Assembly: GCA_035621215.1 (NCBI GenBank)
Contig: CP141729.1
Span: forward strand, 62,001-126,000
DNA: 64,000 nt
Source: Oscillospiraceae bacterium MB08-C2-2
GTDB lineage: Bacteria > Bacillota > Clostridia > Oscillospirales > Ruminococcaceae
Direction of reading: 5' to 3'
Part shown: piece after piece, positions 2,513-59,648 of the stretch
Layout of the letters: each line of letters opens with the position of its first letter
Numbering within the stretch: the first letter of the stretch is position 1
Position numbers and translations under genes: made by a program
The notes under the pieces: generated by a model
What the model saw: only the letters and a program-made list of their open reading frames with translations
Told to the model about the DNA's origin: nothing
Databases searched by the model: none

Positions 2513-5188
2513 TCATCCTTTCCTAACAGCACAACTTGTTTGAGACAGTTTCTTTGCGCAGGCTCCCACAGCCTCTTCAATTCGCTCATACATGGGGAAG
2601 AATATAATCCCTGCCGCCTCCAACCTGCGGGAAGGCGCTTCGCCTATACGCAAAGCGGTTACAGCCTGACAGTCTGCAACCACATCAAGAACGCTTTCCT
2701 TCTGCTCTTGGGTTTGATCACAATCGGCTTTGCCGCCGCAATAACGGTTCACATCCCGCCGTTCTATAAAGCAGACTGTTTTTCCATCGCTTTCATAAAT
2801 ATAAAAGGTGTTAGCATGGCCGAAATGAACATCCACCAACATCCCGCTTTTGGACGCAACAGCCACTCTCCACACCGGAAGTTCCGGTTCGTCTGGCTGG
2901 TATAAGGATATATTTTCTTCCTTTTTTCCCCGAAAGGCAATGGACAAGTCGTTATCCAGTGTTCCAATGGCGTCTGCCCTGCACTGGCGGCAATGAAGCA
3001 TTTGAGGCAGATATTTTCCACAGTTCTTCCGCAGGGTGTGGATTTCTGCCATACTAACCTGTGGCATATCAGCGAAGGCGCTGCCTTCCACCGGAATGAG
3101 CTGCATGATATTGGTTATGCAGGCACCAAGTTCTTTTACAGTCTGAACAATTTGTGGCACATGCTCGTGGTTACAGCCTTTAAGCACCACAATATTTACC
3201 TTGCACTGCACACCCCGCCGGGATAAATACTGCAAACCTGCAAGTTGATTGGCCATTAGAATAGAAGCTGCCTCCACTCCGGTGTAGCGTGTGCCAAGAT
3301 AATTAACATGGTGATAGATATCCGCACCAATTTGGGGATTCACCGCATTGATCGTAATGGTTACATGAGAAACCCCCAGATCAATCAGCTCCTGGGCGTA
3401 AAGTGGCAGCAGCAGGCCGTTGGTGGAAAGGCAAAAGGTTACTTCCTGATCCTGCTCCCGAATCAGCCGCAGGGTTTCCCGGGTTTCCTCAAAATTGGCC
3501 AATGCATCGCCGGGGCCTGCAATGCCGACTACGGTAAGATTCGGAACCTTTTCCCGAACCGCAAAATACTTATCCGCCGCTTGCTGGGGTGAAAGAATCT
3601 CTGTGGTAACGCCGGGGCGGCTCTCGTTGGGGCAATCAAATTTGCGCACACAATAGTTGCATTGAATGTTGCACTTGGGTGCCACAGGCAAATGAATGCG
3701 GGCATTTTTAGTTCCCGAGCAGGTATAGCAGGGGTGGGTCAGGGTGCGTTCTTCAATGGTTTTGGGCATAGCAATCGCCTCCAAAGTAATGGGGGATTCT
3801 GCTGCACGGTGCAGCTTCTGCTGGTAATAGCGTTGGTACAGTTCCTGGCGAAAGCCCTCTTCCTTTCGTGCAAGCATCGTGTTCGCAATTTGTTCCACTA
3901 ATTGCTGTGAAGCGGTGTATCCCAGCATGCGCACATGCTGCCCGCCCACACGATCGTGAATGGGAAAGCCAAGGCGAATCAGGGGGATATGCTGGCGGTG
4001 GGAGATACGGCGGCCATCGGAATTCCCAATCATTAAGTTCACCTTTTGTGAAAGGCACAGGGCTTCTATCTGTTCAAAATCGCAGTCACTGCAAACGATT
4101 GGGTCCTGTTCAAACCAAAGAGCGGCTCCACGGCTCATGGGCTCCAATAAAGCTTGGGATAAAGAAGGGCATACACTGCCTGCTGCCGCTACCAGTGGTA
4201 TGGTGCCATTTTCCAGACACAGCCCCACGCAGGCCGCTACAAGATCGGGCTCACCAAACACAGCGGTGCGGGCATCGGCACAGTATTTGTGGGCATCAAT
4301 CATAGTATCTGCCAGCCGTCCCCGCTCTTGCTCCAGAGCCGGTGGAAAAGTAGCACCCAAATCTTCCAAAACGTTAATAAATGTGTCGGTTGCCTCAATT
4401 CCCACCGGCAATCCCAATCGAACAAACGGCACCTGATGGATATCGTAAAGGTATTGAGCGGGAGAAAGCTCAGGCTCCACAAACTGTGAGAGCTCAATGG
4501 TCATTTGTGCCCCTGCCATTGCAGAAATTTGCTCCAATGAAGTCCCCTGATTGGGCAGCCGATCGTATACAGGGGCATGAACACCGTCTAAATTTTCAGA
4601 CAGGTCCGGCAGTAACACATAGGAAAGCCCAGAGAAATTCAGCAGGTCTTTCAGCCACCGGGTATCCGCAGGAGAAATATGAGGAGTAATAATGTTAATA
4701 CCGCTATGGGAACTTCGCTCCATTTCTACCTGCTCTAGCACGGAACGCAGTGCCCGGAAATAGCCCTCGTTCTGGGTTCCGCCATAACCGGGAGAGGCCA
4801 CTGAAAGCAGTTTAACTTTAGAATTGGGGTGGCTGCTCCGGTATTTATGCAGAATTGCACCCACATCCTCTCCGATGGTTTCGGCCAGGCAGGTGGTGGC
4901 AACCCCCACCACCTCCGGGTGATATTGCGCAATCAGGTTGTCAATGCCCCGCAGTAAATTTTCTTCTCCGCCAAACACGGTACCCTGCTCAGTGAGTGAA
5001 GACGAAGCCACATCCACCGGCTCGTTGTAATGGGTAGCCATATGGCGGCGTATGTAAGTGGCACAGCCCTGTGAGCCGTGAAGAATGGACATACACCCCC
5101 GAATGCCATACAATGCTGTAACTGCTCCCATTGGCATACACATTTTGCAGGGATTCACATTCAGGTTAACCAGCGGCTTTTCCTTCAC
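2513..5188 (-). CDS. nifN-B: NifN-NifB fusion, FeMo-cofactor biosynthesis, with C-terminal NifX-like domain
   Basis: An 891-residue three-part protein. Residues about 5-470 are NifN, the scaffold subunit that pairs with NifE; the cysteine segments NPCKMC, GSQGC and TTCLAET are visible. Residues about 480-765 are NifB, a radical-SAM enzyme that makes the 8Fe-9S-C core; its CX3CX2C motif (CNIQCNYC) is at 506-513, with extra cluster cysteines HPCYTC before it and HCRQC near 733. Residues about 773-880 are a NifX/dinitrogenase-cofactor domain (WRVAVAS...HFGHANTFYIYE). The nifN-nifB fusion is known from C. pasteurianum. The GTG start has AGGAGG 7 bases upstream; an ATG at 5251 is upstream of that site and less likely. 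It overlaps nifE by 23 bases and the next gene begins at or next to its stop. Confidence 0.95.
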   Translation of the reverse strand: MKEKPLVNLNVNPCKMCMPMGAVTALYGIRGCMSILHGSQGCATYIRRHMATHYNEPVDVASSSLTEQGTVFGGEENLLRGIDNLIAQYHPEVVGVATTCLAETIGEDVGAILHKYRSSHPNSKVKLLSVASPGYGGTQNEGYFRALRSVLEQVEMERSSHSGINIITPHISPADTRWLKDLLNFSGLSYVLLPDLSENLDGVHAPVYDRLPNQGTSLEQISAMAGAQMTIELSQFVEPELSPAQYLYDIHQVPFVRLGLPVGIEATDTFINVLEDLGATFPPALEQERGRLADTMIDAHKYCADARTAVFGEPDLVAACVGLCLENGTIPLVAAAGSVCPSLSQALLEPMSRGAALWFEQDPIVCSDCDFEQIEALCLSQKVNLMIGNSDGRRISHRQHIPLIRLGFPIHDRVGGQHVRMLGYTASQQLVEQIANTMLARKEEGFRQELYQRYYQQKLHRAAESPITLEAIAMPKTIEERTLTHPCYTCSGTKNARIHLPVAPKCNIQCNYCVRKFDCPNESRPGVTTEILSPQQAADKYFAVREKVPNLTVVGIAGPGDALANFEETRETLRLIREQDQEVTFCLSTNGLLLPLYAQELIDLGVSHVTITINAVNPQIGADIYHHVNYLGTRYTGVEAASILMANQLAGLQYLSRRGVQCKVNIVVLKGCNHEHVPQIVQTVKELGACITNIMQLIPVEGSAFADMPQVSMAEIHTLRKNCGKYLPQMLHCRQCRADAIGTLDNDLSIAFRGKKEENISLYQPDEPELPVWRVAVASKSGMLVDVHFGHANTFYIYESDGKTVCFIERRDVNRYCGGKADCDQTQEQKESVLDVVADCQAVTALRIGEAPSRRLEAAGIIFFPMYERIEEAVGACAKKLSQTSCAVRKG

Positions 5189-6548
5189 GGTGTTTCCTCC
5201 TTTCTCCAATGTGCTTCCAGACCGGGCTGTTAATGGATAGATTAACCTCATTTACAAAGTTCTCAATGCCTTCAAAACCGGCAAGAGCATGCTTGCGCTC
5301 ATGGTTGTGGTCACAAAAAGCAATTCCCAGCTTGTAGGCGAGGGGGCGCTCTTTGACACCGCCCACCAGAATATCCACTTGCTTTTCCAACATAAATTTT
5401 TCGAGTTCAGCCGGGTTGGCATCATCCAAAATAACAGCATCATCCTTTAGCAGACAGCCGATGATGTCATAGTCTTCTTTTTGGCCTGTCTGCGTGCCTA
5501 CAACCACACTTTCAATGCCCATTTCGTTAAACTGGCGAATGAGAGAAATGGCTTTGAAGCCACCACCTACAAAAATAGCGGCTTTTCGCCCAGCCAAGAA
5601 GGGGCGGTAGCGTTCTAAAAAGCCTTTCATTTCCTCAGATTTAGTTTTGCAGAAGGCACGTGCCTTCTGTTCAGCCTCCCGGTTCTCCAATGCCTGCGTC
5701 ACCCGGATGAGGGAGTTGGTGGTATCCTCTATACCAAAAAAGCTCACTTTGATGTAGGGAATTCCAAACTCCTCCTCCATCTGGTTGGCCAGATAGGTGG
5801 AAGAACCGGCACACTGAACAATATTTAAAGAAGCAGAGGGTGATTTCATCAAGCTATCCATAGAGGCGTCCCCCGTAATGGTAGAAACCACCGGAACACC
5901 AATCTTTTGCAGATAGTTTCGAATAATCCACATTTCTCCGGCCAAATTGTAGTCTCCCAGAATATTGACTCCCTGCTGCCGGGGCAACGGCACAGCAGGA
6001 CGCACAAGCCGCATAATAGCATCGCAGGCCAGCTTATAGCCCTGAGACTTGGTGCCGGAAAATCCGGGGGCCTTCACCGGAATAACCCGGATGCCATGCT
6101 GCTGCTCGGCTTCCCGGCAGACTGCCTCCACATCATCTCCTATTACCCCTACAATGCAGGTGGCATACACAAAAATCAGCCGAGGCCTGCGCTCGTGCAT
6201 TAACTCATCAATGGCTCGGCGGAGCTTATCTGCCCCTCCGAAAATTATATCCCGTTCCCGTAGGTCGGTGGAAAAGCTATGGCGAAAAGTTTCACTTCCA
6301 CTGGTGAGGCTGCCCCGAATATCCCATGTATAGCTGGCGCATCCAATGGGGCCGTGAACAATGTGGTAGGCATCGGTAATGGGGTTCAGCACCACTCGGG
6401 CCCCGCAATAAACGCATGCCCGCTGGCTAACGGCACCGGAGACGCTTTCTTTTTCGCAGGACAGGCCTTTTCCGTTTCCCGAACAGAATCCTTTTTCCCA
6501 AATGGAGCCGGCTCGTTCCTGCAAAACCGATGTCTTTGAAGCTGTCAC
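5166..6548 (-). CDS. nifE: NifE, FeMo-cofactor scaffold subunit
   Basis: A 460-residue NifD-like protein that together with the NifN domain forms the scaffold on which the NifB product is matured by molybdenum and homocitrate insertion. Diagnostic cysteines are in ACVYCGARVV (C45, C48), GPIGCASYTW (C70) and ATCIVGVIGDD. Unlike NifD it has no FeMo-cofactor His motif of the HSYDY type near its end. The GTG start has AGGAGG 8 bases upstream. It lies 39 bases after nifK and overlaps nifN-B. Confidence 0.95.
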   Translation of the reverse strand: MTASKTSVLQERAGSIWEKGFCSGNGKGLSCEKESVSGAVSQRACVYCGARVVLNPITDAYHIVHGPIGCASYTWDIRGSLTSGSETFRHSFSTDLRERDIIFGGADKLRRAIDELMHERRPRLIFVYATCIVGVIGDDVEAVCREAEQQHGIRVIPVKAPGFSGTKSQGYKLACDAIMRLVRPAVPLPRQQGVNILGDYNLAGEMWIIRNYLQKIGVPVVSTITGDASMDSLMKSPSASLNIVQCAGSSTYLANQMEEEFGIPYIKVSFFGIEDTTNSLIRVTQALENREAEQKARAFCKTKSEEMKGFLERYRPFLAGRKAAIFVGGGFKAISLIRQFNEMGIESVVVGTQTGQKEDYDIIGCLLKDDAVILDDANPAELEKFMLEKQVDILVGGVKERPLAYKLGIAFCDHNHERKHALAGFEGIENFVNEVNLSINSPVWKHIGERRKHREGKAAG

Positions 6549-6587: not shown

Positions 6588-7952
6588 TTACATAATAACG
6601 TCGAGATCTTCGTCGGCGCAGTCACGGTCGTATCGATCCATCAGGGCACCAATAATTCTTTCTACAAACAGCATGGCTCCCCGGTAACCCATCATAGGCA
6701 GATAACTGTGAACATACCGATCCAAAATAGGAAAGCCTGCCCGAACAAAGGGAATATCTTCCGCCTTGGCAATTTGTTTGCCGTAGCTGGTGCCCAGCAG
6801 GAGATCCACCGGCTCGTTTTTAATCCACTGGTGCAGCTCAAAGAGATCGGCAGATGCTTTCACAGTGGAACCTTCCACATCATACCGGCCCAGCAGTTCG
6901 TTCACCAAACGAACAAAATCCTCCTTGGGTGTGCCGGTGATAACGTATTTGGGAATCATGCCCATCTCCAAGCACAAGGCACACAGGCCGATTACTGTAT
7001 CCGGGTCTCCAAAGATAGCCACCTTTTTTTGGCTGCTGTATTGGTTGCTATCCAGTAAAATATCCACCAGCTGGCCACGCTCCTCTTCCAGCTCTGGGGG
7101 AACCTCTGTTTTGGAAAGGCGGGAGAGCGCCATGACATATTCATCGGTGGCTTCAATGCCAATGGGCAGCGGCAGTTCTGTAAAAGGAACAGCGTGCCTC
7201 TTTTTCAGCAGTTCAGCAGGCTCTGTGCTGGTGAGCCGCCCCAAAGCCAGAGTATGGGCACAGTCTCCTAACCCGGCTATTTCGGCAAGAGTGGTTCCGC
7301 CTTGGGGATACATTTCGTATTCCCCGCTCATAGGGGCATCCATTACTCCGCTGGTGTCGGGAAATAGGGTAAAGGGCACCTGCATCAGAGAAGCAATGCG
7401 CTTAATCTCTCGCATATCGCCGGGATTCACAAACCCGGGGAAAATAGCGGTTTTGCCGTTGCAGCTTCCTGTTGACTTGGTAAGGTAGGTAATAAAGCCC
7501 TTCATCATATTAAAAAATCCGTTTATGTGGGAACCCGAATAACTGGGTGTGTTGCAGTGCACGACCAGTTTTCCTTCGGGAATCTCCATATCGGTGATGT
7601 AAGAGTTCAGATCATCGCCGATGGTTTCGGAAAGGCAGGTAGTGTGTACAGCAATAATGTCGGGATTGTAAATATCAAACACATTGCGTACAGCGGTTTT
7701 CAGGTTGCTCCCTCCGCCAAACACCGAGGCGCCTTCAGTAAAGGAACTGGAAGAAGCAATGGCCGGGTCCTTAAAATGGCGGGTGAGAAAGGTTCGGTGA
7801 TAGGATACACACCCTTGGGAACCATGGCTATGGGGCATGCATTTGTGTACACCCAGCGCCGCATAGAGAGCCCCCACCGGCTGGCAGGTTTTACAGGGAT
7901 TGATGCGCAGGGCAGTGCGCTGACTAATGGTTTTGGGCGTTAAATCCAGCAT
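6588..7952 (-). CDS. nifK: Nitrogenase MoFe protein beta chain NifK
   Basis: A 454-residue beta chain of the MoFe protein that carries half of the P-cluster. P-cluster ligands are seen in NPCKTCQPVG (C23), GSQGCVSY (C48) and HTTCLSETIGDD (C106), with a serine near 137. The length and the start MLDLTPKTI match the short clostridial NifK, which lacks about 50 N-terminal residues of the Azotobacter protein. The ATG shares one base with the nifD stop (TAATG), and a GGAGGTGAT site lies just upstream inside nifD, so D and K are probably made in equal amounts. Confidence 0.98.
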   Translation of the reverse strand: MLDLTPKTISQRTALRINPCKTCQPVGALYAALGVHKCMPHSHGSQGCVSYHRTFLTRHFKDPAIASSSSFTEGASVFGGGSNLKTAVRNVFDIYNPDIIAVHTTCLSETIGDDLNSYITDMEIPEGKLVVHCNTPSYSGSHINGFFNMMKGFITYLTKSTGSCNGKTAIFPGFVNPGDMREIKRIASLMQVPFTLFPDTSGVMDAPMSGEYEMYPQGGTTLAEIAGLGDCAHTLALGRLTSTEPAELLKKRHAVPFTELPLPIGIEATDEYVMALSRLSKTEVPPELEEERGQLVDILLDSNQYSSQKKVAIFGDPDTVIGLCALCLEMGMIPKYVITGTPKEDFVRLVNELLGRYDVEGSTVKASADLFELHQWIKNEPVDLLLGTSYGKQIAKAEDIPFVRAGFPILDRYVHSYLPMMGYRGAMLFVERIIGALMDRYDRDCADEDLDVIM

Positions 7953-9547
7953 TATAGATCACCTCCACTCAGGGTTCCGGTTAGCATGGGCACGGTTTTC
8001 CAAGGAGGCGTCACAAAGTTCCACGCATTGGTATACAGCGCCATGACAACATCTTGGGCAAAATTCACCGCCCCTTTAAACCCGGCATAGGGCCCCTTGT
8101 AATCATAAGAATGCATCTGGCGGGAGGGCGTTCCCGCCTTTTGGATGACATACTTATCTTTGATGCCGGAGAAGAAGATATCCGGCTTAAGCAGTTTGAT
8201 GAGCATCTCGGTTTCAAAGTGGTTGTAATCATCCACCACAATATGTCCGGATTGCATATCCTGAATCATGCCTTCATATTGATCCAAAGGAATTTGGTCT
8301 TTGAGCCGTGCAAGGGTCTCTTCATCCAAGAAGGTATGGAATTTTTCCGGGTCTGGCTCCACGGTCATATTCTCGATGTTCTTGCTGTCAGCATCCAGCT
8401 TAATGGTGGGGATTACTTTTCGGCCCTCGTAGTCGTCCCGGTGGGCAAACTCGTAACCGGCGATAATCGTCTCCATGCCGAAATCCTCCAGCAGCTTCTG
8501 ATAGTGGTGGGTACGGGAACCGCCTACAAAAATTCCGGCATTTTTGCCTTTCAGCTTTCCCTTGTAATACTCCATATCATCAAATATATCTGCCAATTCA
8601 TCGGCAATGACTTCTTCGGTCCGCTGTTTGATCTCCTCATCACCAAAAAAGGTGGCGATGTCTCGCAGGGATTGAATGGTGGCCTCTACACCGATGAAAT
8701 TCACCTTAAGCCAGCTGATGCCGTATTTGGCCTGCATCATTTCGGCGATGTAGTTGATAGAACGGTGGCACATGACCAGATTCAGGTTTGCCAGATGCGC
8801 ATTCTGCATGGTCTCCACAGAACCATCCCCTGTAAAGATGGATACCACCTCATAGCCGATGCGTTTCAGAACCCGTTCCTGCTCCCAGCCGTCACCGCCG
8901 ATGTTATATTCGCCTAGAATATTCAGGCTGTATTTGCTTTTGGGTATCTTGTCACCGGTGCCGATTACCCGTTTCATCAAGCCATTGTTGGCAATATGGT
9001 GGCCCGCAGATTGAGAAACCCCTTTATAGCCCTCGCAGGAAAATGCGATGCACCGGATATTAAACTCTGATTCTGCCCATGCAGCCACAGCATGCACATC
9101 GTCTCCAATCAGACCGATGGGGCAGGTGGAGCAAATCATGATGCTCTTAGGATTAAAGATTTCCATTGCTTCCACAATGGCTTGCTTTAGCTTTTTTTCT
9201 CCGCCGAAGACAATATCGGGCTCTTGCATATCGGTGGAAAAGCAGTAGGGGATAAAGTTTTGGCCGCCCTCCTGTGCAACGGCCTTGTTTCGGCGGGTGC
9301 CCCAGCTGTAAAAGCCGCACCCAATAGGACCATGGGTGATTACACAAACATCCTTAAGAGGGCCCACTACCACGCCTTTACAGCCTGCATAGCAACAGCC
9401 CCGATTGGTCATAATGCCCGGAACGGCCCGGGTGTTGGCGGCGATTTGGGGAACCCCCGGGGCTTCTTCCAGTTCCAGCACGTGCTCCTTGCGGTTTTTA
9501 TACACCCGCGAAGAATATTTTTCCAATAATCTAGCTCTGTTATCCAA
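7952..9547 (-). CDS. nifD: Nitrogenase MoFe protein alpha chain NifD
   Basis: A 531-residue alpha chain that holds FeMo-cofactor and half of the P-cluster. P-cluster cysteines lie in CYAGCKG (C56), GPIGC (C77) and STCPIGLIGDD (C142). FeMo-cofactor ligands are the Cys of VMCHRSINY (C260) and the His of MHSYDYKGPYAG (H479). Residues about 377-445 contain the roughly 50-residue insertion typical of clostridial NifD. I chose a TTG start because GAGG sits 8 bases upstream; a GTG three codons earlier (9556) has no usable spacing. It is Mo-type: no vnf/anf delta-subunit gene is in the operon. Confidence 0.97.
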   Translation of the reverse strand: MDNRARLLEKYSSRVYKNRKEHVLELEEAPGVPQIAANTRAVPGIMTNRGCCYAGCKGVVVGPLKDVCVITHGPIGCGFYSWGTRRNKAVAQEGGQNFIPYCFSTDMQEPDIVFGGEKKLKQAIVEAMEIFNPKSIMICSTCPIGLIGDDVHAVAAWAESEFNIRCIAFSCEGYKGVSQSAGHHIANNGLMKRVIGTGDKIPKSKYSLNILGEYNIGGDGWEQERVLKRIGYEVVSIFTGDGSVETMQNAHLANLNLVMCHRSINYIAEMMQAKYGISWLKVNFIGVEATIQSLRDIATFFGDEEIKQRTEEVIADELADIFDDMEYYKGKLKGKNAGIFVGGSRTHHYQKLLEDFGMETIIAGYEFAHRDDYEGRKVIPTIKLDADSKNIENMTVEPDPEKFHTFLDEETLARLKDQIPLDQYEGMIQDMQSGHIVVDDYNHFETEMLIKLLKPDIFFSGIKDKYVIQKAGTPSRQMHSYDYKGPYAGFKGAVNFAQDVVMALYTNAWNFVTPPWKTVPMLTGTLSGGDL

Positions 9548-9560
9548 GTTTTTCACCTCA

Positions 9561-9944
9561 CTAATAGGCTTCTACAGTGGTCTCAAAGGTGCGAATTGTA
9601 TATGCTTCTTCAATGGGACTTATAAAGATTCTTCCATCACCCGGGTTGCCGGTCTGGTTGGTATCGATAATCGTTCGCACCACATGCTCCACCTGATCAT
9701 CCTCAACAACCAGGGTAAAGTAGCGTTTTGCAATCAGCCGATGGGATTCGGTCAAATGTTCCCCCACCGCATTAGTGGGAAGCTCCCCATGCTCAATAAT
9801 TGCATTCAGGGCCATTGCGTCAATGCTCTTTTTACCTCGTCCAAGACATTTGCGGCAGGTAAATGCGGGATACCCGGCCTTAGCCAGCGCATTTTTGGTT
9901 TGGTTGACCATATTGACACGTATAAAAGCCATAATCTCTTTCAT
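9561..9944 (-). CDS. nifI2: NifI2, PII-family nitrogenase regulator
   Basis: A 127-residue PII-like protein. It begins MKEIMAFIRVNMVNQTKNAL and has the PII core VEDDQVEHVVRTIIDTNQTG followed by GDGRIFISPIEEAYTIR. The central T-loop region is longer than in GlnB/GlnK, as in the NifI2 subfamily. In methanogens and clostridia NifI1 and NifI2 form a complex that inhibits dinitrogenase when ammonium is present, an effect relieved by 2-oxoglutarate. The internal ATG is chosen because AAGGGGG lies 7 bases upstream; the open frame extends further up with no such site. It lies directly before nifD. Confidence 0.93.
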   Translation of the reverse strand: MKEIMAFIRVNMVNQTKNALAKAGYPAFTCRKCLGRGKKSIDAMALNAIIEHGELPTNAVGEHLTESHRLIAKRYFTLVVEDDQVEHVVRTIIDTNQTGNPGDGRIFISPIEEAYTIRTFETTVEAY

Positions 9945-9957
9945 GATGCGGCCCCCT

Positions 9958-10281
9958 TCACAATCCCGATTTACCGGAACTGATGGTATATGCCTCTTGA
10001 ATTTGTGAAACAAAGATGCGCCCATCACCATAAGTACCACTGCCCGTGCGGGCATTTTTTATAATAATGCGAATCAAATCTTCTTTGTCCTCATCCCGGC
10101 ACACAATGATCAGCATTTCTTTTGGGATTTCGTCGTAGTGCACCTCACCCACTGTAATGCCTTTTTGTTTGCCTCGGCCGTATACATCCATTTTCGTAAT
10201 GGCGGGAAATCCTGCGGCGGCCAGTTCGGACATAACAGTTCCGCTTTTCTCCGGTCGGATAATCGCTCGAATCATCTGCAT
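9958..10281 (-). CDS. nifI1: NifI1, PII-family nitrogenase regulator
   Basis: A 107-residue PII-like protein starting MQMIRAIIRPEKSGTVMSEL. It contains the MDVYGRGKQKGITVG T-loop stretch and the C-terminal GDGRIFVSQIQEAYTI block. It pairs with NifI2, encoded immediately downstream, for post-translational switch-off of nitrogenase. The start used has AAAGGGG about 10 bases upstream; the frame stays open to 10302. Placement between nifH and nifD is the standard location for nifI genes in clostridia and archaea. Confidence 0.93.
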   Translation of the reverse strand: MQMIRAIIRPEKSGTVMSELAAAGFPAITKMDVYGRGKQKGITVGEVHYDEIPKEMLIIVCRDEDKEDLIRIIIKNARTGSGTYGDGRIFVSQIQEAYTISSGKSGL

Positions 10282-10305
10282 AGTAATTTTTCCCCTTTCC
10301 ATTAT

Positions 10306-11202
<897 letters not shown>

Positions 11203-11446: not shown

Positions 11447-12067
11447 ATGGAACAGCAAAAAATCGCAGTATACACCGATGAAAGCAACCAACTCTGCCTG
11501 TTTGAAGATGCCAAGAAGTGCATATTATTCGACAATATTCTACATTGGCAGACCGTGCAGGAATACTATGTTCCATCCTATCAAAAGCACTCGATGAGGG
11601 ATATTCGCTCGGCTATCGCCCAGCTTATTACACGGCTGAATGATTGCAGAATTATTGCGGGCCGTTCCATGGGAGGGCTGCCTTATCAAATGTTCAATTC
11701 GGCCGGCTACAGCATTTTTGAAATTTCAGAGATCAGCAGCGTCATATTTGACCAAATTCTTTCTGATATTGCAGAAAGCGCCACCGCCCAAAAGCTTGCA
11801 TCGAAAGCACCGGTAGGCCCCGAAAAAGCCGAGATTCCTGGAGTTTACAAGCTGGATTTGCTCCGCTTGCAGCAAGAGCACCCGCATCTTTCTTCAAAAC
11901 AGGCTTTGACCCATTTTTTATCCGACACATCTTTTACCCAGCTGCACCTCTATTGCGATCATCTCCCGCCGTGGATTGCCAGAGCCGGTTTTCGCATTGA
12001 AATGCAGCAGCGGAGTGAGGGTGGCATATGTGCAGTGCTCTTTAGTGAAAGCGACCACGGACAATAG
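11447..12067 (+). CDS. AnfO-like nitrogenase accessory protein
   Basis: A 206-residue protein that resembles the AnfO family (iron-only nitrogenase accessory protein). The N-terminal half begins KIAVYTDESNQLCLFEDAK, then has an 'IRSAIAQLITRLNDCRIIAG' helix and the glycine-rich RSMGGLPYQMFNSAGYSIFE segment typical of that family. The second half is less conserved and has no motif I know. The biochemical role of AnfO is not established. It starts 323 bases from nifH in the opposite direction (GGGGG upstream of the ATG) and is followed 18 bases later by the next gene. No iron-only or vanadium nitrogenase genes are in the window, so it is associated here with a Mo system. Family assignment is from recall of sequence pattern. 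Confidence 0.65.
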   Translation: MEQQKIAVYTDESNQLCLFEDAKKCILFDNILHWQTVQEYYVPSYQKHSMRDIRSAIAQLITRLNDCRIIAGRSMGGLPYQMFNSAGYSIFEISEISSVIFDQILSDIAESATAQKLASKAPVGPEKAEIPGVYKLDLLRLQQEHPHLSSKQALTHFLSDTSFTQLHLYCDHLPPWIARAGFRIEMQQRSEGGICAVLFSESDHGQ

Positions 12068-12085
12068 GAAAGAGAGGTATTTGCC

Positions 12086-13057
12086 ATGACAGAAACAACT
12101 TTGGTGCTCCCCTTTGGTGTCCTTAACGGAGTGGCTACGGTTTCGCATTATCCCAACGGTACACCTCAGGATGTAACCTTACGAGAGAAAAACGTGATTC
12201 TTACCCATGTGGGAGAGCTGATTCCTCTGTATAAAACAGATTCTGCCCGCCGTAAATATAAGAGCGCTATAAGCTTTCACCCCAGCGGTACAATCAAAAG
12301 TGTTTCATTGCAGCAACAGCAGGATATTCAAACTCCAATCGGTGAATTTCCCGCAGAGCTGGTCACTTTTTACGAAACAGGCGAGCTTAAACGTTTTTTT
12401 GTGCTGGATGGCCAACTCAGCGGATTTTGGAGCATAGAAGATGAACGTGCCCTCAATATTGCCTTTTCATTTGAGTTTCCATTTGCAGCGTTTCAGGCTA
12501 TGCTGGTGGGAATCTGTTTATACAAAAGCGGCTCTATCCGCAGCCTGACCCTATTCCCCGGTGAGCAAATTTCCCTCACGCTGGATGGCTTGGGCACGAT
12601 TTCTGTTCGTACCGGGTTCTCTTTGTATGAGGATGGGCAGGTTCGTTCGCTGGAACCGGCTGTACCCTCAGCCGTGAAAACACCCATTGGCACACTGTGG
12701 GCTTACGATGCCCAAGCACTGGGAATCAGCGCAGACAGCAGCTCTCTTATGCTGGATCAAGAAGGCCGCATTATCGCTTTATCAACCATGACCAACCGGA
12801 TTGTGGCCACTGTTCCCGGGTATCCAGTTACCACCTTTACACAGCAAAGCGTAACCGACCCCATTAACCCTTTGGTTCAGATGAAAATGCCTCTGCGCAT
12901 CGTGTTCGATTATCAAAAAAATCTTGTCATCATCGGTGATTCCGAGCCTTTGCCTATGAGCAAAGAGTGGTTCATTGTTTTTCAGGAAGAGGGTGCACCG
13001 ACATGTTCACCCGATGCGTGCGCCAGCTGCCGCCTATGCCAAGATAAAACCAAATAA
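12086..13057 (+). CDS. Uncharacterised repeat protein with cysteine tail
   Basis: A 323-residue protein, function unknown. It has about six copies of a short motif of the form aromatic-x-x-x-Gly-x-[IV]-[RK]-S-[LV]: YPNGTPQDVTL, FHPSGTIKSVSL, FYETGELKRFFVL, LYKSGSIRSLTL, LYEDGQVRSLEP and LDQEGRIIALST. These resemble MORN/YwqK-type beta hairpins. Two of them are followed or preceded by TPIG. The last 20 residues carry four cysteines spaced CX5CX2CX2C, a possible metal or Fe-S site. No signal peptide or membrane segment is seen, so it is probably cytoplasmic. It lies 18 bases after the AnfO-like gene, and both face away from nifH, which suggests a job linked to nitrogenase or molybdenum use, but that is inference. 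Confidence 0.75.
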   Translation: MTETTLVLPFGVLNGVATVSHYPNGTPQDVTLREKNVILTHVGELIPLYKTDSARRKYKSAISFHPSGTIKSVSLQQQQDIQTPIGEFPAELVTFYETGELKRFFVLDGQLSGFWSIEDERALNIAFSFEFPFAAFQAMLVGICLYKSGSIRSLTLFPGEQISLTLDGLGTISVRTGFSLYEDGQVRSLEPAVPSAVKTPIGTLWAYDAQALGISADSSSLMLDQEGRIIALSTMTNRIVATVPGYPVTTFTQQSVTDPINPLVQMKMPLRIVFDYQKNLVIIGDSEPLPMSKEWFIVFQEEGAPTCSPDACASCRLCQDKTK

Positions 13058-13080: not shown

Positions 13081-13131
13081 TCAAAAAAGCAGACCGTGCG
13101 CCTGAAAAGGCATGCGGTCTGCTTTTTTGAT
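13081..13131. terminator. Bidirectional terminator
   Basis: Arms AAAAAAGCAGACCG and CGGTCTGCTTTTTT flank a smaller GCC...GGC hairpin. A and T tracts on both sides let it stop the repeat-protein transcript (plus) and the regulator transcript (minus), which converge here. Confidence 0.85.
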
Positions 13132-13137
13132 GTTGTA

Positions 13138-14082
13138 TCATACCCGAAAAATACGTCCGGTTTCCGAAAAGTCGTAATCGCCTAGAGGAGACAGCTCCAG
13201 CATAAACCGCTCAGAAGAAATAAAATCCAGCATCACCCGGAAAGGCATTTCATCTTGCTGACGAGCCAAAAACACCAAATCATACCATTCCCGTTGCAGG
13301 GGCACAAATTCCACCCCACGAACCTGCTGTGCAGTACGCCCGATGCCCAACCCCACATGAGCTTCTCCCGAAGCCACTGCCCCGGCCACCGAAAGATGCG
13401 AACTTCTAGGCGTATAGTATCCATCAAGGGAATCGGACGATAGGTGCAGTGTGCGAAGTTTTTCATCCAGCAAAACCCGCATTCCACCTCCCGGTTCCCG
13501 GTTAGCCAATACCAAACCGGGTTGCCGCAAATCTTCCCATCTGCGCAGATTCCGTGGGTTCCCTTCGGCGGTATAAAATCCGACAGTGCGGCCAAACAAG
13601 CGCACAACAACAGCATCGGTGGCGGGCAACAGCTTTTGAATATAGGGCAGGTTATAGGTTCCTGTTTGTTCGTCCCATAAATGGGCGGTAGCGGCTTGGG
13701 CATGCCCACGGTACAAATCCACCAACCCGTTATAGCTTCCCTTTTGGGAACGAAGCGCTTGTGGCATGCCGGGTTGAATGGAGAGTTCACCGGCGATTAA
13801 ATCCAGTGCCACATCCTGCCCGCAGAGAACAAAGGTCTCTAGCTGAGTAGTCGGGCGAGAGGCCAGTGGTGAAGCGGGGCGCATGAAAACAGGCTCCTGC
13901 GGCAAGGTGGAAGAGAGTGGGGGAGTAGGCGCAAACAGGTTCTGCACATCCTCCTGCCGAATACGCAGCTGTTTGCCTATTTTGTGGGATGGCAAATCCC
14001 CACGCTTAATCATCTCATAAACTGTACTTTTCTTTACCTTCAGGATCTCAGCCGTTTCTTGTGCGGTTAACAAGTCTTCCAT
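13138..14082 (-). CDS. HTH plus substrate-binding-domain regulator, probably molybdate-responsive
   Basis: A 314-residue one-component regulator. Residues about 1-50 are an excisionase/MerR-like helix-turn-helix (LLTAQETAEILKVKKSTVYEMIKRGDLPSHKIGKQLRI). A proline-rich linker follows. Residues about 80-310 are a periplasmic-binding-protein-like domain lacking any signal peptide (the PBP_like family found fused to such HTH domains), including NREPGGGMRVLLDEKL and SSHLSVAGAVASGEAHVGLGI. Because it is divergent from modA, sensing molybdate or tungstate and controlling modABC (and perhaps nif) is the likely role. The ATG used has AAAGGG 7 bases upstream; a GTG at 14100 is possible. Confidence 0.82.
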   Translation of the reverse strand: MEDLLTAQETAEILKVKKSTVYEMIKRGDLPSHKIGKQLRIRQEDVQNLFAPTPPLSSTLPQEPVFMRPASPLASRPTTQLETFVLCGQDVALDLIAGELSIQPGMPQALRSQKGSYNGLVDLYRGHAQAATAHLWDEQTGTYNLPYIQKLLPATDAVVVRLFGRTVGFYTAEGNPRNLRRWEDLRQPGLVLANREPGGGMRVLLDEKLRTLHLSSDSLDGYYTPRSSHLSVAGAVASGEAHVGLGIGRTAQQVRGVEFVPLQREWYDLVFLARQQDEMPFRVMLDFISSERFMLELSPLGDYDFSETGRIFRV

Positions 14083-14220
14083 AGGCCTTCCCTTTTTCAC
14101 ATTATTTTCTTTATTGTAACCAAACGAAGCAACGCTGTAAAGTCTTTCTGGCTGTTTGCAAAATGCCTACAAAAATCCCCTTTGTTATTTTGATGATTTT
14201 TACAAATAGATGTATTGTTT

Positions 14221-14305: not shown

Positions 14306-15145
14306 ATGAAACAAGCTCGTGTATATCTGAGTATAATTCTTATGTTCGCCATGCTGCTGGTGCAGGGATGCTCCAACAACACGCCCACTCCATCCTCAGC
14401 CCCAGAAAGCGCCATCTCTGCCGAGCCATTTTCATCGGAAGATTCCCCTGAACCGGTAGAGATACAGGTTTTTGCAGCAGCCAGCCTGACCGAATCGCTA
14501 ACTGCCATTCAAAAACTATATCAGGCAAAGGCACCAGAGGTTACACTTGTATTCAATTTTGATTCCAGCGGTACATTGAAAACGCAGATCGAATCAGGTG
14601 CACAGGCTGATCTATTTATTTCAGCCGCACAAAAACAAATGGCCGGATTGGAGGAAGGCGACTATCTGCTGACAGAAACCCGCAAGGATTTGTTGGTAAA
14701 CAAAGTGGTTATGATTGTGCCGGAAGGTTCCGACAAAGGCATTACCGGCTTTGAGGATGCTTCTACCGATAAAGTAGAGCTGATTGCACTGGGCAACTCG
14801 GATGTTCCGGTGGGGCAATACGCACAGGAAATCTACACTTCATTAGGCTCATGGGATCAAATTTACGCCAAAGCCTCTTTGGGTACCAATGTAAAAGAGG
14901 TTCTCTCACAGGTAGAAAGCGCCTCAGTAGATTGTGGTGTTGTTTATGCCACAGACGCCACTACTGCCAGCGGCATTACAGTTGTGGCAGAAGCACCGGC
15001 CGGGAGCCATTCCCCGGTAGTCTACCCAGCCGCCGTGCTTAAGACAACCGCTTCCCGTGAGGCCGCACAGGCATTTTTGGAATATCTGACAAGTCCGGAA
15101 GCTATGGCAGAATTTGAAGCGGTGGGCTTTACCGCAGCCTCCTGA
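14306..15145 (+). CDS. modA: Molybdate ABC transporter, binding lipoprotein ModA
   Basis: A 279-residue molybdate/tungstate-binding lipoprotein. The signal peptide ends in the lipobox LLVQGC with lipidated C22, then comes a Ser/Pro-rich linker to about residue 50. The binding domain begins IQVFAAASLTESLTAI and shows the usual FDSSGTLKTQIESGAQADLFISAA oxyanion-binding loops. It is anchored on the outer face of the membrane and delivers molybdate to ModBC. GGGAGGG precedes the ATG. It is the first gene of modABC, with an approximately 100-base gap to modB. Confidence 0.95.
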   Translation: MKQARVYLSIILMFAMLLVQGCSNNTPTPSSAPESAISAEPFSSEDSPEPVEIQVFAAASLTESLTAIQKLYQAKAPEVTLVFNFDSSGTLKTQIESGAQADLFISAAQKQMAGLEEGDYLLTETRKDLLVNKVVMIVPEGSDKGITGFEDASTDKVELIALGNSDVPVGQYAQEIYTSLGSWDQIYAKASLGTNVKEVLSQVESASVDCGVVYATDATTASGITVVAEAPAGSHSPVVYPAAVLKTTASREAAQAFLEYLTSPEAMAEFEAVGFTAAS

Positions 15146-15248
15146 CAAAGATATCCAGCAAGTGAAGGCAAGCTTTGTCAATGGTAAAAAAGCGATCCGA
15201 TTTCTGATCCAAATTGTCTGATTAAGACTGGAAAGGGGGCTCTTGGGT

Positions 15249-15938
15249 ATGGATTGGTTTCCACTCTGGAATTCTCTGCGGATTTCCGCGATTTCCACTA
15301 TTATTACATTTTTTCTAGGGCTATTCTGCGCCCACTGGATTGCCAAAGCCCCCCGTATTGCGAAAAGCATTCTGGATACGGTGCTCACGCTTCCCTTGAT
15401 ATTGCCGCCTACTGTCATCGGCTTCTTTATTTTGGTTACCGTAGGCCCCAAAGGGCCGATTGGGTTGCTGCTCCGCTCTTGGGTTGACTACACAGTGACC
15501 ATGAAATGGCAAGCCTCTGTCATTGCCGTGGTGATCGTGACCTTTCCTCTGATGTACCGCACTGCACGGGGCGCTTTTGAACACTTTGACCAGAGATTGT
15601 TCCATGCGGGGCAAACACTGGGGTTAACGAATTTTTACATATTTTGGCGCATTGTGATGCCCAACTGCCGGCAGGGAATTTTGGCCGGAACTGTCTTGGC
15701 CTTTGCACGAGGGCTGGGTGAATACGGTGCCACAAGCATGGTATCGGGCTACATTGCCAATCGCACAGCCACCATTTCCACAACAGTAGCCTATTATTGG
15801 CAGACCAATCAGGAGGGAGAAGCCTATCGCTGGGTGCTGCTAAACCTATTGATTTCTTTTTCCGTAATGGTGAGCATCAATTTTTTAGAAAAGCGGCAGA
15901 AAAATCCGCTCAGGTCATACACACAAGAAACTGTTTGA
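15249..15938 (+). CDS. modB: Molybdate ABC transporter, permease ModB
   Basis: A 229-residue inner-membrane permease with about five hydrophobic helices. It contains the ModB-type block TLPLILPPTVIGFFIL and the ABC-contact loop LAFARGLGEYGATSMVSGYI (the EAA-type GEYGA motif). The ATG used is 9 bases from AAAGGGGG; a TTG two codons earlier is too close to it. Works with ModA and ModC to import molybdate. Confidence 0.95.
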   Translation: MDWFPLWNSLRISAISTIITFFLGLFCAHWIAKAPRIAKSILDTVLTLPLILPPTVIGFFILVTVGPKGPIGLLLRSWVDYTVTMKWQASVIAVVIVTFPLMYRTARGAFEHFDQRLFHAGQTLGLTNFYIFWRIVMPNCRQGILAGTVLAFARGLGEYGATSMVSGYIANRTATISTTVAYYWQTNQEGEAYRWVLLNLLISFSVMVSINFLEKRQKNPLRSYTQETV

Positions 15939-15978
15939 GGCTGCGAGGGCTATTCTGCTTGCCGAGGGAGGTAAAAGC

Positions 15979-17028
15979 ATGTCACTGATCGTCGACATTA
16001 AAAAGAGTTTCGGGCAGTTTGTATTGTGCATTGCCTTTGAGGCGAACAACGGTATTCATGCTTTTTTGGGGGCATCCGGCTGTGGAAAGAGCCTCACACT
16101 GCAATGCATTGCGGGAATCATAACACCCGATGAAGGCCATATTATTCTCGACGGGATTACACTGTTTGACTCCAAAAAAAAGATCAATCTTTCCCCGCAG
16201 CAGCGCAGAGCGGGCCTTCTGTTCCAGAGCTATGCCCTTTTCCCCAATATGACAGTGGAACAGAACATTAAGCTGGGTATGAGAAACAGGCGAAAAACAA
16301 TCCGTGATGGGAGCACTGTGGAACTCATTAAAATGCTGTGTTTAGAAGGGCTGGAAAACCACTATCCCTCTCAGCTTTCCGGTGGACAGCAGCAGAGGGT
16401 GGCACTGGCCCGCATGCTGGCACCAGAACCCCGCATCTTAATGCTGGATGAACCGTTTTCTGCTTTGGATAGCTATCTGCGCTGGCAGCTGGAACAGGAT
16501 GTGGGAGCGGTGCTGCGGAGCTTTTCCGGAACTACACTGTTTGTTTCCCATAATCGGGATGAGGTCTATCGTATGTGCGATTATATCACTGTTGTATCAA
16601 AGGGCAAAGTCAGCATCAGTGATGAAAAATGGGCTTTGTTTGGCCATCCCCGTACCCATGCAGCGGCATTGCTTACCGGCTGCAAAAACATTTCACCAGC
16701 GGAAAGAATTGATGAATATACTGTATTGGCCAAGGATTGGGGCATAACGCTTCGTTCAGCCGCCCCTGTCTCCAAGGAAACATGTTTTGTTGGAATAAGG
16801 GCCAAGCAAATCCAACTTTGTGGCGATCAGGAAGTGGACAATATATTCCAATGCCAAGTTGGCTCTTTTATTGAGGATACTTTTAGTTATATTCGTATGC
16901 TGCGGCCCACTTTTGATGCTTGCCGGCAGATCCGCTGGGAGTGCAGTAAAGAGCAGCCTTTAGGGCAGGATGCACATTCGGTAAAGATTTACATTGAGCC
17001 GGAACACGTGCTGCTGTTGACAGACTGA
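15979..17028 (+). CDS. modC: Molybdate ABC transporter, ATPase ModC
   Basis: A 349-residue ATP-binding subunit. Walker A GASGCGKS is at residues 31-38, the Q-loop is LLFQSYALFP, the signature is LSGGQQQR, Walker B is RILMLDEPFSALD and the switch His is in FVSHNRDE. The last 120 residues are a C-terminal regulatory extension that may include a TOBE/molybdate-binding-type domain, though it is poorly conserved to my eye. GGGAGG lies upstream of the ATG. It closes the modABC operon; hairpins and a terminator follow. Confidence 0.93.
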   Translation: MSLIVDIKKSFGQFVLCIAFEANNGIHAFLGASGCGKSLTLQCIAGIITPDEGHIILDGITLFDSKKKINLSPQQRRAGLLFQSYALFPNMTVEQNIKLGMRNRRKTIRDGSTVELIKMLCLEGLENHYPSQLSGGQQQRVALARMLAPEPRILMLDEPFSALDSYLRWQLEQDVGAVLRSFSGTTLFVSHNRDEVYRMCDYITVVSKGKVSISDEKWALFGHPRTHAAALLTGCKNISPAERIDEYTVLAKDWGITLRSAAPVSKETCFVGIRAKQIQLCGDQEVDNIFQCQVGSFIEDTFSYIRMLRPTFDACRQIRWECSKEQPLGQDAHSVKIYIEPEHVLLLTD

Positions 17029-17386: not shown

Positions 17387-20300
17387 TCAGTTAGCACCCT
17401 CTGGGGCTCTGCCGGTTTTCAGTATGCCATTGGTATCAAACGAGTAAGTTATCCCCTCAATGGCGTGCGTTCCCACAAGTGCCTTACCTTGCTGATAATA
17501 CAGCCACTGTCCCGCATCATTTTTTGCCCAGCTCTGCATGGTGTTGCTGTGAATCGTTAGCTTGACATAGCGGTGCAGCATGGAGGAAATCTCTGCTCGG
17601 GTGGCACTGGCAGTCGGATCAAACTTGTTTCCGGTTTTTCCCATTGCAACGCCTGCCTTCTGCAGGGTTGTTACAGCAGTTTTATAGGAAGCGGCGATAC
17701 TGGAAGAATCGGTGAACACAGCCTGACGAATATCCGGCAAAGTATAGCCCGTGGCCTTGGCATAGTTGGCAAAAATCAGTGCCGCTTCTTGGCGGGTAAC
17801 CACCTTATCCGGCGCAAACTGCTTGTTGCCAATATCCTGAAGGATGCCTTTGCTATATGCCCATTCAATATAAGGGCGGAGTGCGCTGTCGGCCTTTACA
17901 TCTGTGAAGGTATTGGTTTGATAGCTCTTTTCGTTGATACCCGCCAGTTTGCCTAGAGCGGTCACCAGTGCGCCTCGGGTTATAGCGGCATCAGGCGAGA
18001 AGGCAGCTTCCGAGGTGCGGGACAGCAACCCGCGTCCCACGACATAATCAATGCTGTCCTTCGCCCAATGGGAAGAAATATCGGTCAGCTTAGCGGTGGG
18101 ATCGGTGTAGCTGACACCATATACAGAAAAGTGATTTGTGGCAAAAATAATACTATTAGTATTAGCATCATAGGCCGAATCGGGAACACGTCTGACAATT
18201 CCCTTGTCGTCTACATACACCACATGCAGGTACCCTACCTTTTCACCGGCGGCTGGAGTATAGGGAATGCTTACATAAACAGTTCCCTTGCCGAAGTTTG
18301 TCACGCTGCCATTGCCGCTCTGATAGCTTGCCTTGAAATTATAGACAGGGCGGCTGCCAATAGCCGTTTTTGCTGCGGCGCTCAACATGGTGCTGCTGGT
18401 TCTGGTGGCACTGAGCTGCACATCCATTTTGGCTTGTCTGTTGATTTCAGTAATGGCTGCATTGTTCAGCCCCATTACAATATCCGGACGATCAATGGTC
18501 AGCTCCACAGCGGCAATTTGATTGTTGATCACCTTCTGCTGAACCGTTTGGGGCAGGTTTACCGATACAGTGTTTGCATCCTTGCCACCCATGGAAACGT
18601 TGATAACAACCGTAATTTCGCCTGCGTTTTTCCCTAGCTTGGCGGCGTTTGCCTTTGCGTTGGAAATGGCGTCGGCAATGTTTTTATCGGTTACAGTGGC
18701 TTTGGTGTTGCCATTGCTGTCCACACTGGCTTTGTTCTCTGAGCCGCCGGTTACCGGAACGCTGGAAATGTTTCCTGAGTCGCCTGAACCGCTGCCGCTG
18801 GAATTGCCTTTGCCAGTGTCACGGTCATCGTCGTCCTTATCGGAGTTTACGATGGCGGGATTGTTTTGGCGGGTGATGGTGAGGGTATAAATCTTGGTGG
18901 AGCCGTTTTCTGCCGTGACCTTGATGTATGCTGTATTGGCCCCTGTGTTGAGCGCTATAGTTTTATTTGTAATCTCTTGTGTGCAGGCCGCATCGCCGTA
19001 GAGCTTCCAGCCTGCACCCCCGCTCACTGTCACATCAATGGTTTGGCTGGTGACACTGCCGGCTACTGTGGCGGTGACGGTGCTTGCTGTGATGGCTGCG
19101 TTTGCGGGAACCACTGAGGAGAGCACAGAGTTCTCACCGCTGCTAGCCTCAATCGCTCGAATGGTTACGGTTGTAACCGGGCTGGCATTGAACAGTTCGG
19201 TGGCAGGATAGCGCACCGCGTAAGTGCCTGCGGAAAGACCAGAAATTTCTCCGCTAAAACCGGCATAGAAGGGGGTATAGCTTTCACCTGTATCGGGAGT
19301 GAGCACATTCCTGTATTCATACCGGGCACTGGGTGTCAAACCGGTAATTTGGCCGCTGACAGGGCTGGGCGGCGTTACATTCACTGCTGTGAGACCAGCT
19401 GGTGCATCCTGATCCCCTTTTTCCACAAGCAGGGTGGCCGTTACCGGCAAGCTTTCAGTATAGTTTGCGGTTTCCGCCGTTACAAGCTGGATTCTGAAGG
19501 TTCCCAAATCGGTAACGGTGAGTATGCTGCCCGAAATGGTTCCACTGCCGGTGGTTCCGGTGGAATCAATGGTGTAGGTTGGTGCGCCTCCGTTGGGATC
19601 CGCCGTAAACAGCCCGGGCACTGCGGAAAGGTTGATACCCGCCGCTTTGTATTTTGTATTGGTGCTGCCCCCCGTGTTCACAATGGTTCCCCGATTCACC
19701 GTAAAGGTCAACGATACCGTTTGGGAAATACCGTTGTCTCCTGTAACGGAAAGAGTATCGGAATATGTTCCGGTGGGAAGCCCGAGGCTCGGTTGTACAC
19801 GGACAGTGGCTGTTGCATTGGGTGCAAGCTGAGTTGCAGACAGCGGTGTGCTAATGGTAAAATTCTCTCCGTTGCTCAGAGAAGCAGCCAGATTGGTAAT
19901 GGTGCTGGTGCCGGTGTTCTGAATGGTGAACTCCTGCTCCTGCTGCTGTCCGTAACCGTATGCCGCCTCTGGAAAGGTGCGGCTTGCGGGGGTCACTGTA
20001 GCCGAATAGGCAACAGCATCCTCTCCGATGGTCACTATATTCGAATCGTCACTTACAGCATGCAGAGCGTTTTCGGGATAGCGTACCACATAGGATCCTG
20101 GGGGAAGCCCGGTAATCTGGCCGTATTGATCGGTGGTGGCAGTGGTGTAGCTGCTTGCGCCGACAATTTTGTATTCCACCTCTTTGTAAGCAATCAGCCA
20201 CCTGATTGCGCCGTTGCTGCTGCCAACGGTTGCATTCACGGCTCCAATGGTTGGGGCAGGGATTACTCCCTTTACTATGTCCAGGATAACCGATACCTTG

Positions 20301-22981: not shown

Positions 22982-22988
22982 ATGAATT

Positions 22989-22995
22989 CCTCCTC
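22989..22995 (-). promoter_or_regulatory. Strong ribosome binding site before an ATC codon
   Basis: GAGGAGG on the minus strand is spaced 7 bases from ATC (22981-22979), exactly where a start codon is expected, just before the signal peptide. This is why I begin the SLH protein at that ATC. Confidence 0.6.
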
Positions 22996-23145
22996 TTTTT
23001 TGCTGTTTAGAGAATACTCCAGAGCGCCTCGATTCGCCCTTTTTCGACAATATTCCTATGGTGATTGTAACATTTGCCCCTCTACGGATTCTCAACAAGC
23101 TGCATCAAAAAAAGGCTGGGTAAAATTATTTATTCATATAGAAAT

Positions 23146-59288: not shown

Positions 59289-59648
59289 TTATTCGTGATG
59301 GTGATGTTCATGACCATGGTCATGGGTACAGCTTACGGGAATCGATACCAGCTCGCCCTTTAAATATTGCCTGACCGCTTGCAGAGCATCACCGGATGCA
59401 CCGGTAAGCACCTCTATATTTCTTTGCTTAAGAGCCTTTTGAGCGCCTTCCCCCATACCCCCGGAAATGACCAGAGAAGCTCCTTTTTCCTGCAAAAAAT
59501 TGGGGAGAGAGCCGGAATCATGCCCCGGGCTGGCAAAGCTTTCACAGCGGAGCAAATTGCCGTTTTCCACTTCACAAATGAGGAAGCTTTCACAGTGTCC
59601 GAAATGTCCGCTCACCTGAGAACCATCACACGCTACAGCCAATTTCAT
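59289..59648 (-). CDS. NifX/NafY-type dinitrogenase-cofactor family protein with His-rich tail
   Basis: A 119-residue protein. MKLAVACDGSQVSGHFGHCESFLICEVENG is the standard start of the NifB/NifX cofactor-binding family, followed by LQEKGASLVISGGMGEGAQKAL. The end carries seven histidines (HDHGHEHHHHE). Such stand-alone proteins occur widely in anaerobes next to Mrp-like ATPases, usually without nitrogenase, and are thought to bind Fe-S or metal clusters. A role in FeMo-cofactor handling is possible here because the genome has nif, but unproven. It lies 22 bases after the Mrp-like gene. Confidence 0.9.
   Translation of the reverse strand: MKLAVACDGSQVSGHFGHCESFLICEVENGNLLRCESFASPGHDSGSLPNFLQEKGASLVISGGMGEGAQKALKQRNIEVLTGASGDALQAVRQYLKGELVSIPVSCTHDHGHEHHHHE

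Follow-up and report, generated by a model that had tools for sequence, protein, structure and literature searches.

An AnfO-family gene and a repeat-protein gene beside the Mo nitrogenase operon of Oscillospiraceae bacterium MB08-C2-2

AnfO is named and annotated as a protein of the Fe-only nitrogenase, and the single role tested for it requires several nitrogenases in one cell. In Azotobacter vinelandii, the N-terminal domain of AnfO binds the apo-FeFe protein and the C-terminal domain binds FeMo-co, the full-length protein also binds FeV-co, the conserved His203 is required whereas Cys201 is dispensable, and the protein was likened to NafY by its authors (PMC11938142). An AnfO-like gene followed by a gene for a repeat protein (RP) was noticed beside a Mo-type nif operon in the window, i.e. 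the whole stretch of 64,000 nucleotides analysed here. The question raised by this locus is what an AnfO-like protein does at a Mo nitrogenase and whether RP belongs with it.

AnfO is listed among the nif cluster genes of Desulfotomaculum gibsoniae (PMC4148979), and a paper on Desulfofundulus (PMC11206085) shows it in its figure of the nif cluster, in both cases with no function or RP given. No paper describing RP, the AnfO-RP pair or a nif-linked MORN_2 protein was found in the literature searched, to which most subscription journals do not belong, and the main text of a Clostridium nif transcription paper holds no gene-level data on the pair. The term undescribed, used of this module in the preliminary description, thus holds, within that literature, for RP and for the pair and not for AnfO in Mo-nif clusters.

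The locus and its two proteins

The two genes are flanked on one side by a divergent nif operon, with the order nifH-I1-I2-D-K-E-NB, 2Fe-2S ferredoxin and nifV omega/alpha, and on the other by a regulator and modABC. The features, in window coordinates, are as follows.

352-1170 and 1167-2171, - strand: split homocitrate synthase, nifV alpha and nifV omega, respectively (ORFs; order as in relatives)
2199-2516, - strand: 2Fe-2S thioredoxin-like ferredoxin (Pfam match; order as in relatives)
2513-5251, - strand: fused nifN-B (profile matches; C-terminal NifX-like domain)
5166-6548, - strand: nifE (profile matches)
6588-7952, - strand: nifK, Mo type (best model TIGR01286, 419 against a cutoff of 427)
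7952-9556, - strand: nifD, Mo type (658 bits, above the TIGR01282 cutoff of 653.55)
9561-10302, - strand: nifI1 and nifI2, two PII-like genes (position between nifH and nifD; homologues likewise placed in related Mo loci)
10306-11124, - strand: nifH, divergent from the AnfO gene (ORF list; the start is placed at a Met inside the longer ORF 10306-11166)
11447-12067, + strand: AnfO-family gene (gene 1), 206 aa (PF09582 match)
11954-11974, + strand: codons of the CxHxPxW motif, C170-D-H172-L-P-P-W176 (conservation among relatives)
12086-13057, + strand: RP gene (gene 2), 323 aa (six MORN_2-like units)
13004-13039, + strand: Cys tail of RP, C307-X4-C312-X2-C315-X2-C318 (conserved in the RP alignment, A1)
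13081-13130, no strand assigned: strong hairpin with A/T flanks (-35.2 kcal/mol, z -8.4)
13138-14100, - strand: regulator with HTH_17 and PBP_like domains, between RP and modA (PF12727 194 bits, PF12728 58 bits)
14306-17028, + strand: modABC molybdate transporter (ModA by Pfam; modB and modC from ORF translations)

The coordinates, the strand and the spacing of 18 bases from the AnfO end to the RP start had been given exactly in the preliminary description; its two-gene unit between nif and mod also stood, with the regulator preceding modA left out. The hairpin is likely a bidirectional terminator closing the AnfO-RP unit, and because so stable a hairpin closes it, the unit is probably bicistronic. 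A consensus scan of the gap between nifH and the AnfO gene, which says little, gave no promoter-like site. The leader of nifH carries a 20-pair hairpin (11148-11193, - strand, -32.7 kcal/mol, z -6.6) just 5' of the probable ribosome-binding site. The regulator is possibly oxyanion-responsive; relatives of it lie near mod, AnfO-RP or alternative nitrogenase genes at eight loci (L052, L058, L068, L106, L112, L120, L134 and L138), and it is possibly the molybdate sensor of these clusters. Beside the mod operon lies a gene for a large repetitive protein of about 1,900 aa (17387-23098, - strand), with apparent S-layer-homology repeats near its C-terminus as read from the ORF list.

By its profile match, the gene 1 product is an AnfO-family protein, as had been proposed: it scores 144 bits against PF09582 (AnfO_nitrog; cutoff 30.3) over profile positions 1-184 of 190. 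Its score of 83 bits against the equivalog TIGR02940 (Fe-only nitrogenase accessory protein) lies under the cutoff of 129, which is exceeded by relatives from genomes without AnfG (L106, 159 bits; L019, 153 bits). The AlphaFold2 model (pLDDT 89, pTM 0.57), examined with Foldseek, comprises an N-terminal NifX-like domain (residues ~1-118), a linker (~119-131) and a C-terminal domain (~132-200). The top PDB matches include NifX in NifEN-NifX (9ian), the NafY core (1p90; E 4.9e-4, probability 1.00, TM 0.56 by target length) and other NifX-fold proteins, and the protein is accordingly predicted to have a NifX/NafY-type fold. It matches no NafY-type family of Pfam or NCBIfam; the only match is to PF02579 (E 0.024), under the cutoff. 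H172, P174 and W176 are invariant in 16/16 alignment rows, and among 67 AnfO relatives, some of whose rows are the same gene occurring in two loci, HxPxW is present in all 67 and CxHxPxW in 62. The shared motif suggests that H172 corresponds to His203 of A. vinelandii AnfO.

The likeness to AnfO of A. vinelandii and Rhodobacter capsulatus thus covers the PF09582 family, the two domains, the NifX-like N-domain and the C-x-H of the C-domain. However, known AnfO is encoded with anfHDGK and protects the FeFe protein, whereas the window AnfO lies beside Mo-nif genes, has no AnfG in its genome, falls below the equivalog cutoff and is paired with RP. With NafY (also NifY, VnfY and NifX) it would share a NifX-fold domain and a two-domain logic, with docking on apo-nitrogenase and cofactor binding by a histidine; in the model the likeness appears limited to the NifX-like core fold, the sequence family and the second domain being different.

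RP has six repeat cores, with core glycines at residues 25, 68, 99, 149, 184 and 227, each unit built around G-x-[ILV]-[KR]-[ST]-[IL]. In profile searches the RP of the window matches no curated named family, MORN_2 (PF07661) included, and 14 of 16 RP homologues do match MORN_2 (best E 1.8e-9), which bears out the earlier reading of MORN/YwqK-like repeats. The structure prediction that had been proposed for RP gave a model (pLDDT 86) that is nearly all beta, with a disordered Cys tail; compared with the PDB it showed no fold match at E<=0.001, the best being noise (E 8.7e-3, TM 0.12). A match to endospore appendages (Enas, E 0.064) was below the cutoff, and the link was therefore rejected. The Cys tail noticed earlier is present, with the spacing CX4CX2CX2C rather than CX5CX2CX2C. 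In A1, C307, C312 and C315 are invariant and C318 nearly so, and most rows have the spacing CX2CX2CX2C. As the tail is missing from 22 of 81 RP loci (e.g. Chlorobaculum, termite-gut 'Deltaproteobacteria' MAGs and two Clostridium), it is, as judged from the sequences, a lineage feature, and the core function shared by RP proteins is not metal binding. Although RP resembles MORN_2/YwqK-type proteins in its repeat units and all-beta prediction, it appears to be a family of its own, with members of about 320 aa that mostly carry a Cys-rich tail and that were found only in nifD+ genomes of the class sample described below.

A family-by-family search of this genome detected no AnfG or VnfG, and a genome-wide search found a single NifD, of the Mo type; hence anfHDGK is absent from the genome that carries gene 1, neither an Fe-only nor a V nitrogenase was found by these searches, and the earlier statement that only Mo-type NifDK is encoded in the window extends to the genome. 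Neither NafY nor NifY is seen in this nif operon, and a PF02579 search of the genome returned no nif-linked NifX-type protein beyond the NifN-B domain; NifN and NifB form a single fusion protein of 912 aa with this NifX-like domain at its C-terminus. The genome has a single further PF02579 protein (window 59361-59627, - strand); it is His-rich, stand-alone and of the ORP type, and its relation to nif is improbable. The count of stand-alone NifX-type proteins (PF02579) was rejected as a discriminator between genomes with and without AnfO, since most genomes carry several copies.

Occurrence of the pair across genomes

Co-occurrence was examined in an even sample of 391 genomes of the class. Of these, 26 have NifD, 14 have AnfO (over the cutoff) and 14 have RP; all the genomes with AnfO or RP are nifD+, and 13 carry both. 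The RP count leaves out one weak partial match (G104, E 5.7e-4 over 62 residues), which was set aside as an unrelated repeat protein. The association with nifD is equally strong for RP and AnfO (Fisher p = 5e-19 in the 391 genomes, uncorrected for kinship) and, for RP, is spread over 8 families; inside the nif+ genomes AnfO and RP are associated with each other (p = 1.7e-5, uncorrected for kinship; 2.5e-4 at the genus level). AnfO is missing from 12 of the 26 nifD+ genomes and is thus not essential to every clostridial Mo nitrogenase. Plasmid searches gave no match to AnfO or RP.

The gene-neighbourhood survey proposed in the preliminary description drew on 208 RP relatives from one genome per species (84,980 species), the best 80 of which were retrieved, a set biased to close relatives of the query. 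In 52 of these best 80 named loci AnfO is adjacent to RP on the same strand, nearly always in the order AnfO-RP, with a median gap of 6 bp (<=100 bp in 48/52 pairs). Among the 52 pairs, 24 lie directly behind nifV, 10 show the divergent arrangement with nifH seen in the window, 6 are just upstream of nifH and 5 adjoin mod genes. The gene orders include nifV-AnfO-RP-modABC (L070, L073, L086), modABC-AnfO-RP (L067) and modBCA-RP-AnfO in Clostridium homopropionicum (L106). RP also occurs beside modABC without AnfO (L057, genome G336) and adjoins Mo-nif at four loci with AnfO not nearby (L074, L098, L129, L142); since AnfO in turn occurs without RP (G025), the two can part. No nif gene lies within 10 kb of 27 RP loci, and for 23 of these a NifD- or NifE-type gene is found elsewhere in the genome. 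The RP of Chlorobiota (L111, L119, L122, L124-L127; Chlorobaculum and relatives) lacks the Cys tail and is located away from AnfO and nif, with nif elsewhere in the genomes.

AnfG is absent in 12 of the 14 AnfO+ genomes of the class sample and present in two. Of 50 RP+ genomes checked for AnfG, which were picked mainly for their Mo-nif loci, 47 lack it. Intact pairs beside nifV, nifH or modABC are found across 7-8 families of the class and also in Bacillota, Actinomycetota and Myxococcota. AnfO and RP are a conserved pair that accompanies Mo nitrogenase in many anaerobes without the Fe-only enzyme.

Genomes with two nitrogenases can hold two pairs, one per system: in G090 the pairs lie at L052 (ANFD type) and L055 (nif), in G294 they lie at L058 (VNFD type) and L045 (nif), and G446 has an AnfG-linked and a nif-linked pair. 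In the AnfO tree, the copies from such two-system genomes are placed apart from each other. The part holding the window AnfO has 40/48 rows at Mo loci; of the 9 rows linked to alternative nitrogenases, 8 lie in the other part, together with 8 Mo-linked rows. The deep split has an SH-aLRT value of 95 on a very short branch, and because this branch is short, the split by nitrogenase type appears to be a tendency rather than two clean clades. A locus of Sporolactobacillus shoreicorticis LMG 29111 (L076, 2643-18671; genome G418) carries anfHDGK, nifB, a split nifV, RP and AnfO. Apart from the apparent AnfD itself, no NifD-type match reached E<=1e-100 in this genome, which may belong to a diazotroph with the Fe-only nitrogenase alone, an unusual case if so.

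Proposed function of the pair

Guarding the FeFe protein cannot be the task of AnfO here, since the genome encodes none, and the known role of keeping FeMo-co and FeV-co out of that protein is inapplicable in a Mo-only genome. As AnfO in the class occurs mostly where Mo nitrogenase alone is encoded, the single tested role is not general; as the pair goes with Mo nitrogenases in many anaerobes without the Fe-only enzyme, AnfO probably has a broader role in nitrogenase cofactor handling. The earlier proposal of an accessory module for cofactor or Mo handling is supported: the AnfO profile match is strong, the genome has neither AnfG nor a second NifD, and RP is conserved with nif. The cofactor side is favoured over the Mo side because AnfO binds apo-nitrogenase and FeMo-co (PMC11938142) and because of the operons shared with nifV and modABC.

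As to the exact function of the pair, we infer, with about as much confidence as doubt, that the best explanation is a chaperone resembling NafY, which would bind apo-NifDK and capture FeMo-co or pass it on, RP being its partner. AnfO and RP would be made from one transcription unit that helps the Mo nitrogenase to mature. The NifX-fold N-terminal domain of AnfO would dock on apo-NifDK, and its C-terminal domain, via H172, would hold the FeMo-cofactor or a precursor during or before insertion. RP would be the co-expressed partner, most simply a beta-repeat scaffold binding AnfO and/or apo-NifDK, and in most lineages its Cys tail may serve to bind a metal or an Fe-S species. With neither NafY nor NifY seen in this nif operon, such a pair could account for FeMo-co delivery to NifDK in anaerobes of this kind, and nif gene sets for engineering would gain RP as a new candidate. 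By the simplest extension of the known role, each AnfO would dock on its own apo-nitrogenase and handle the cofactor there, either as a NafY-like carrier or as a guard against incomplete cofactor. A wider reading, put forward tentatively, is that AnfO-RP serves cofactor insertion in anaerobic nitrogenases generally, each nitrogenase type having a single cognate copy; the Azotobacter 'guard' of the Fe-only enzyme would then be a specialised offshoot and RP a new class of maturation factor.

It is rather unlikely, though worth weighing, that AnfO is instead a fidelity guard of the MoFe protein, which captures cofactor that is still premature, either NifB-co or a form lacking Mo, and keeps the incomplete cluster from apo-NifDK, most usefully at scarce Mo, with RP assisting or sensing Mo. 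The capture chemistry would be that of known AnfO (PMC11938142), operons are shared with modABC, and AnfO is also present in G418, where, with seemingly an Fe-only nitrogenase alone, isozyme sorting would be moot; but known AnfO leaves the NifB-co route to a filled FeFe protein unblocked, and sequence cannot tell a guard from a carrier. A role upstream of the cofactor, as a carrier of Mo or Mo-S from ModABC to NifEN similar to NifQ of proteobacteria, in which RP would supply the ligand through its Cys tail and AnfO would serve as adaptor, would accord with the adjacency to modABC in several lineages (L057 and L106 included). This role is improbable in view of the homologous pairs at Mo-free anf systems (L052, L110) and the loss of the Cys tail in many RP members. 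That the pair is a relic of a lost anf operon with no role in Mo nitrogenase, as its first description with anf and several changes of nitrogenase type on the AnfO tree might suggest, is highly improbable given the intact conserved pairs at nifV, nifH or modABC across families and phyla, the prevalence of Mo loci in the window's part of the tree, and the retention of both copies in two-system genomes.
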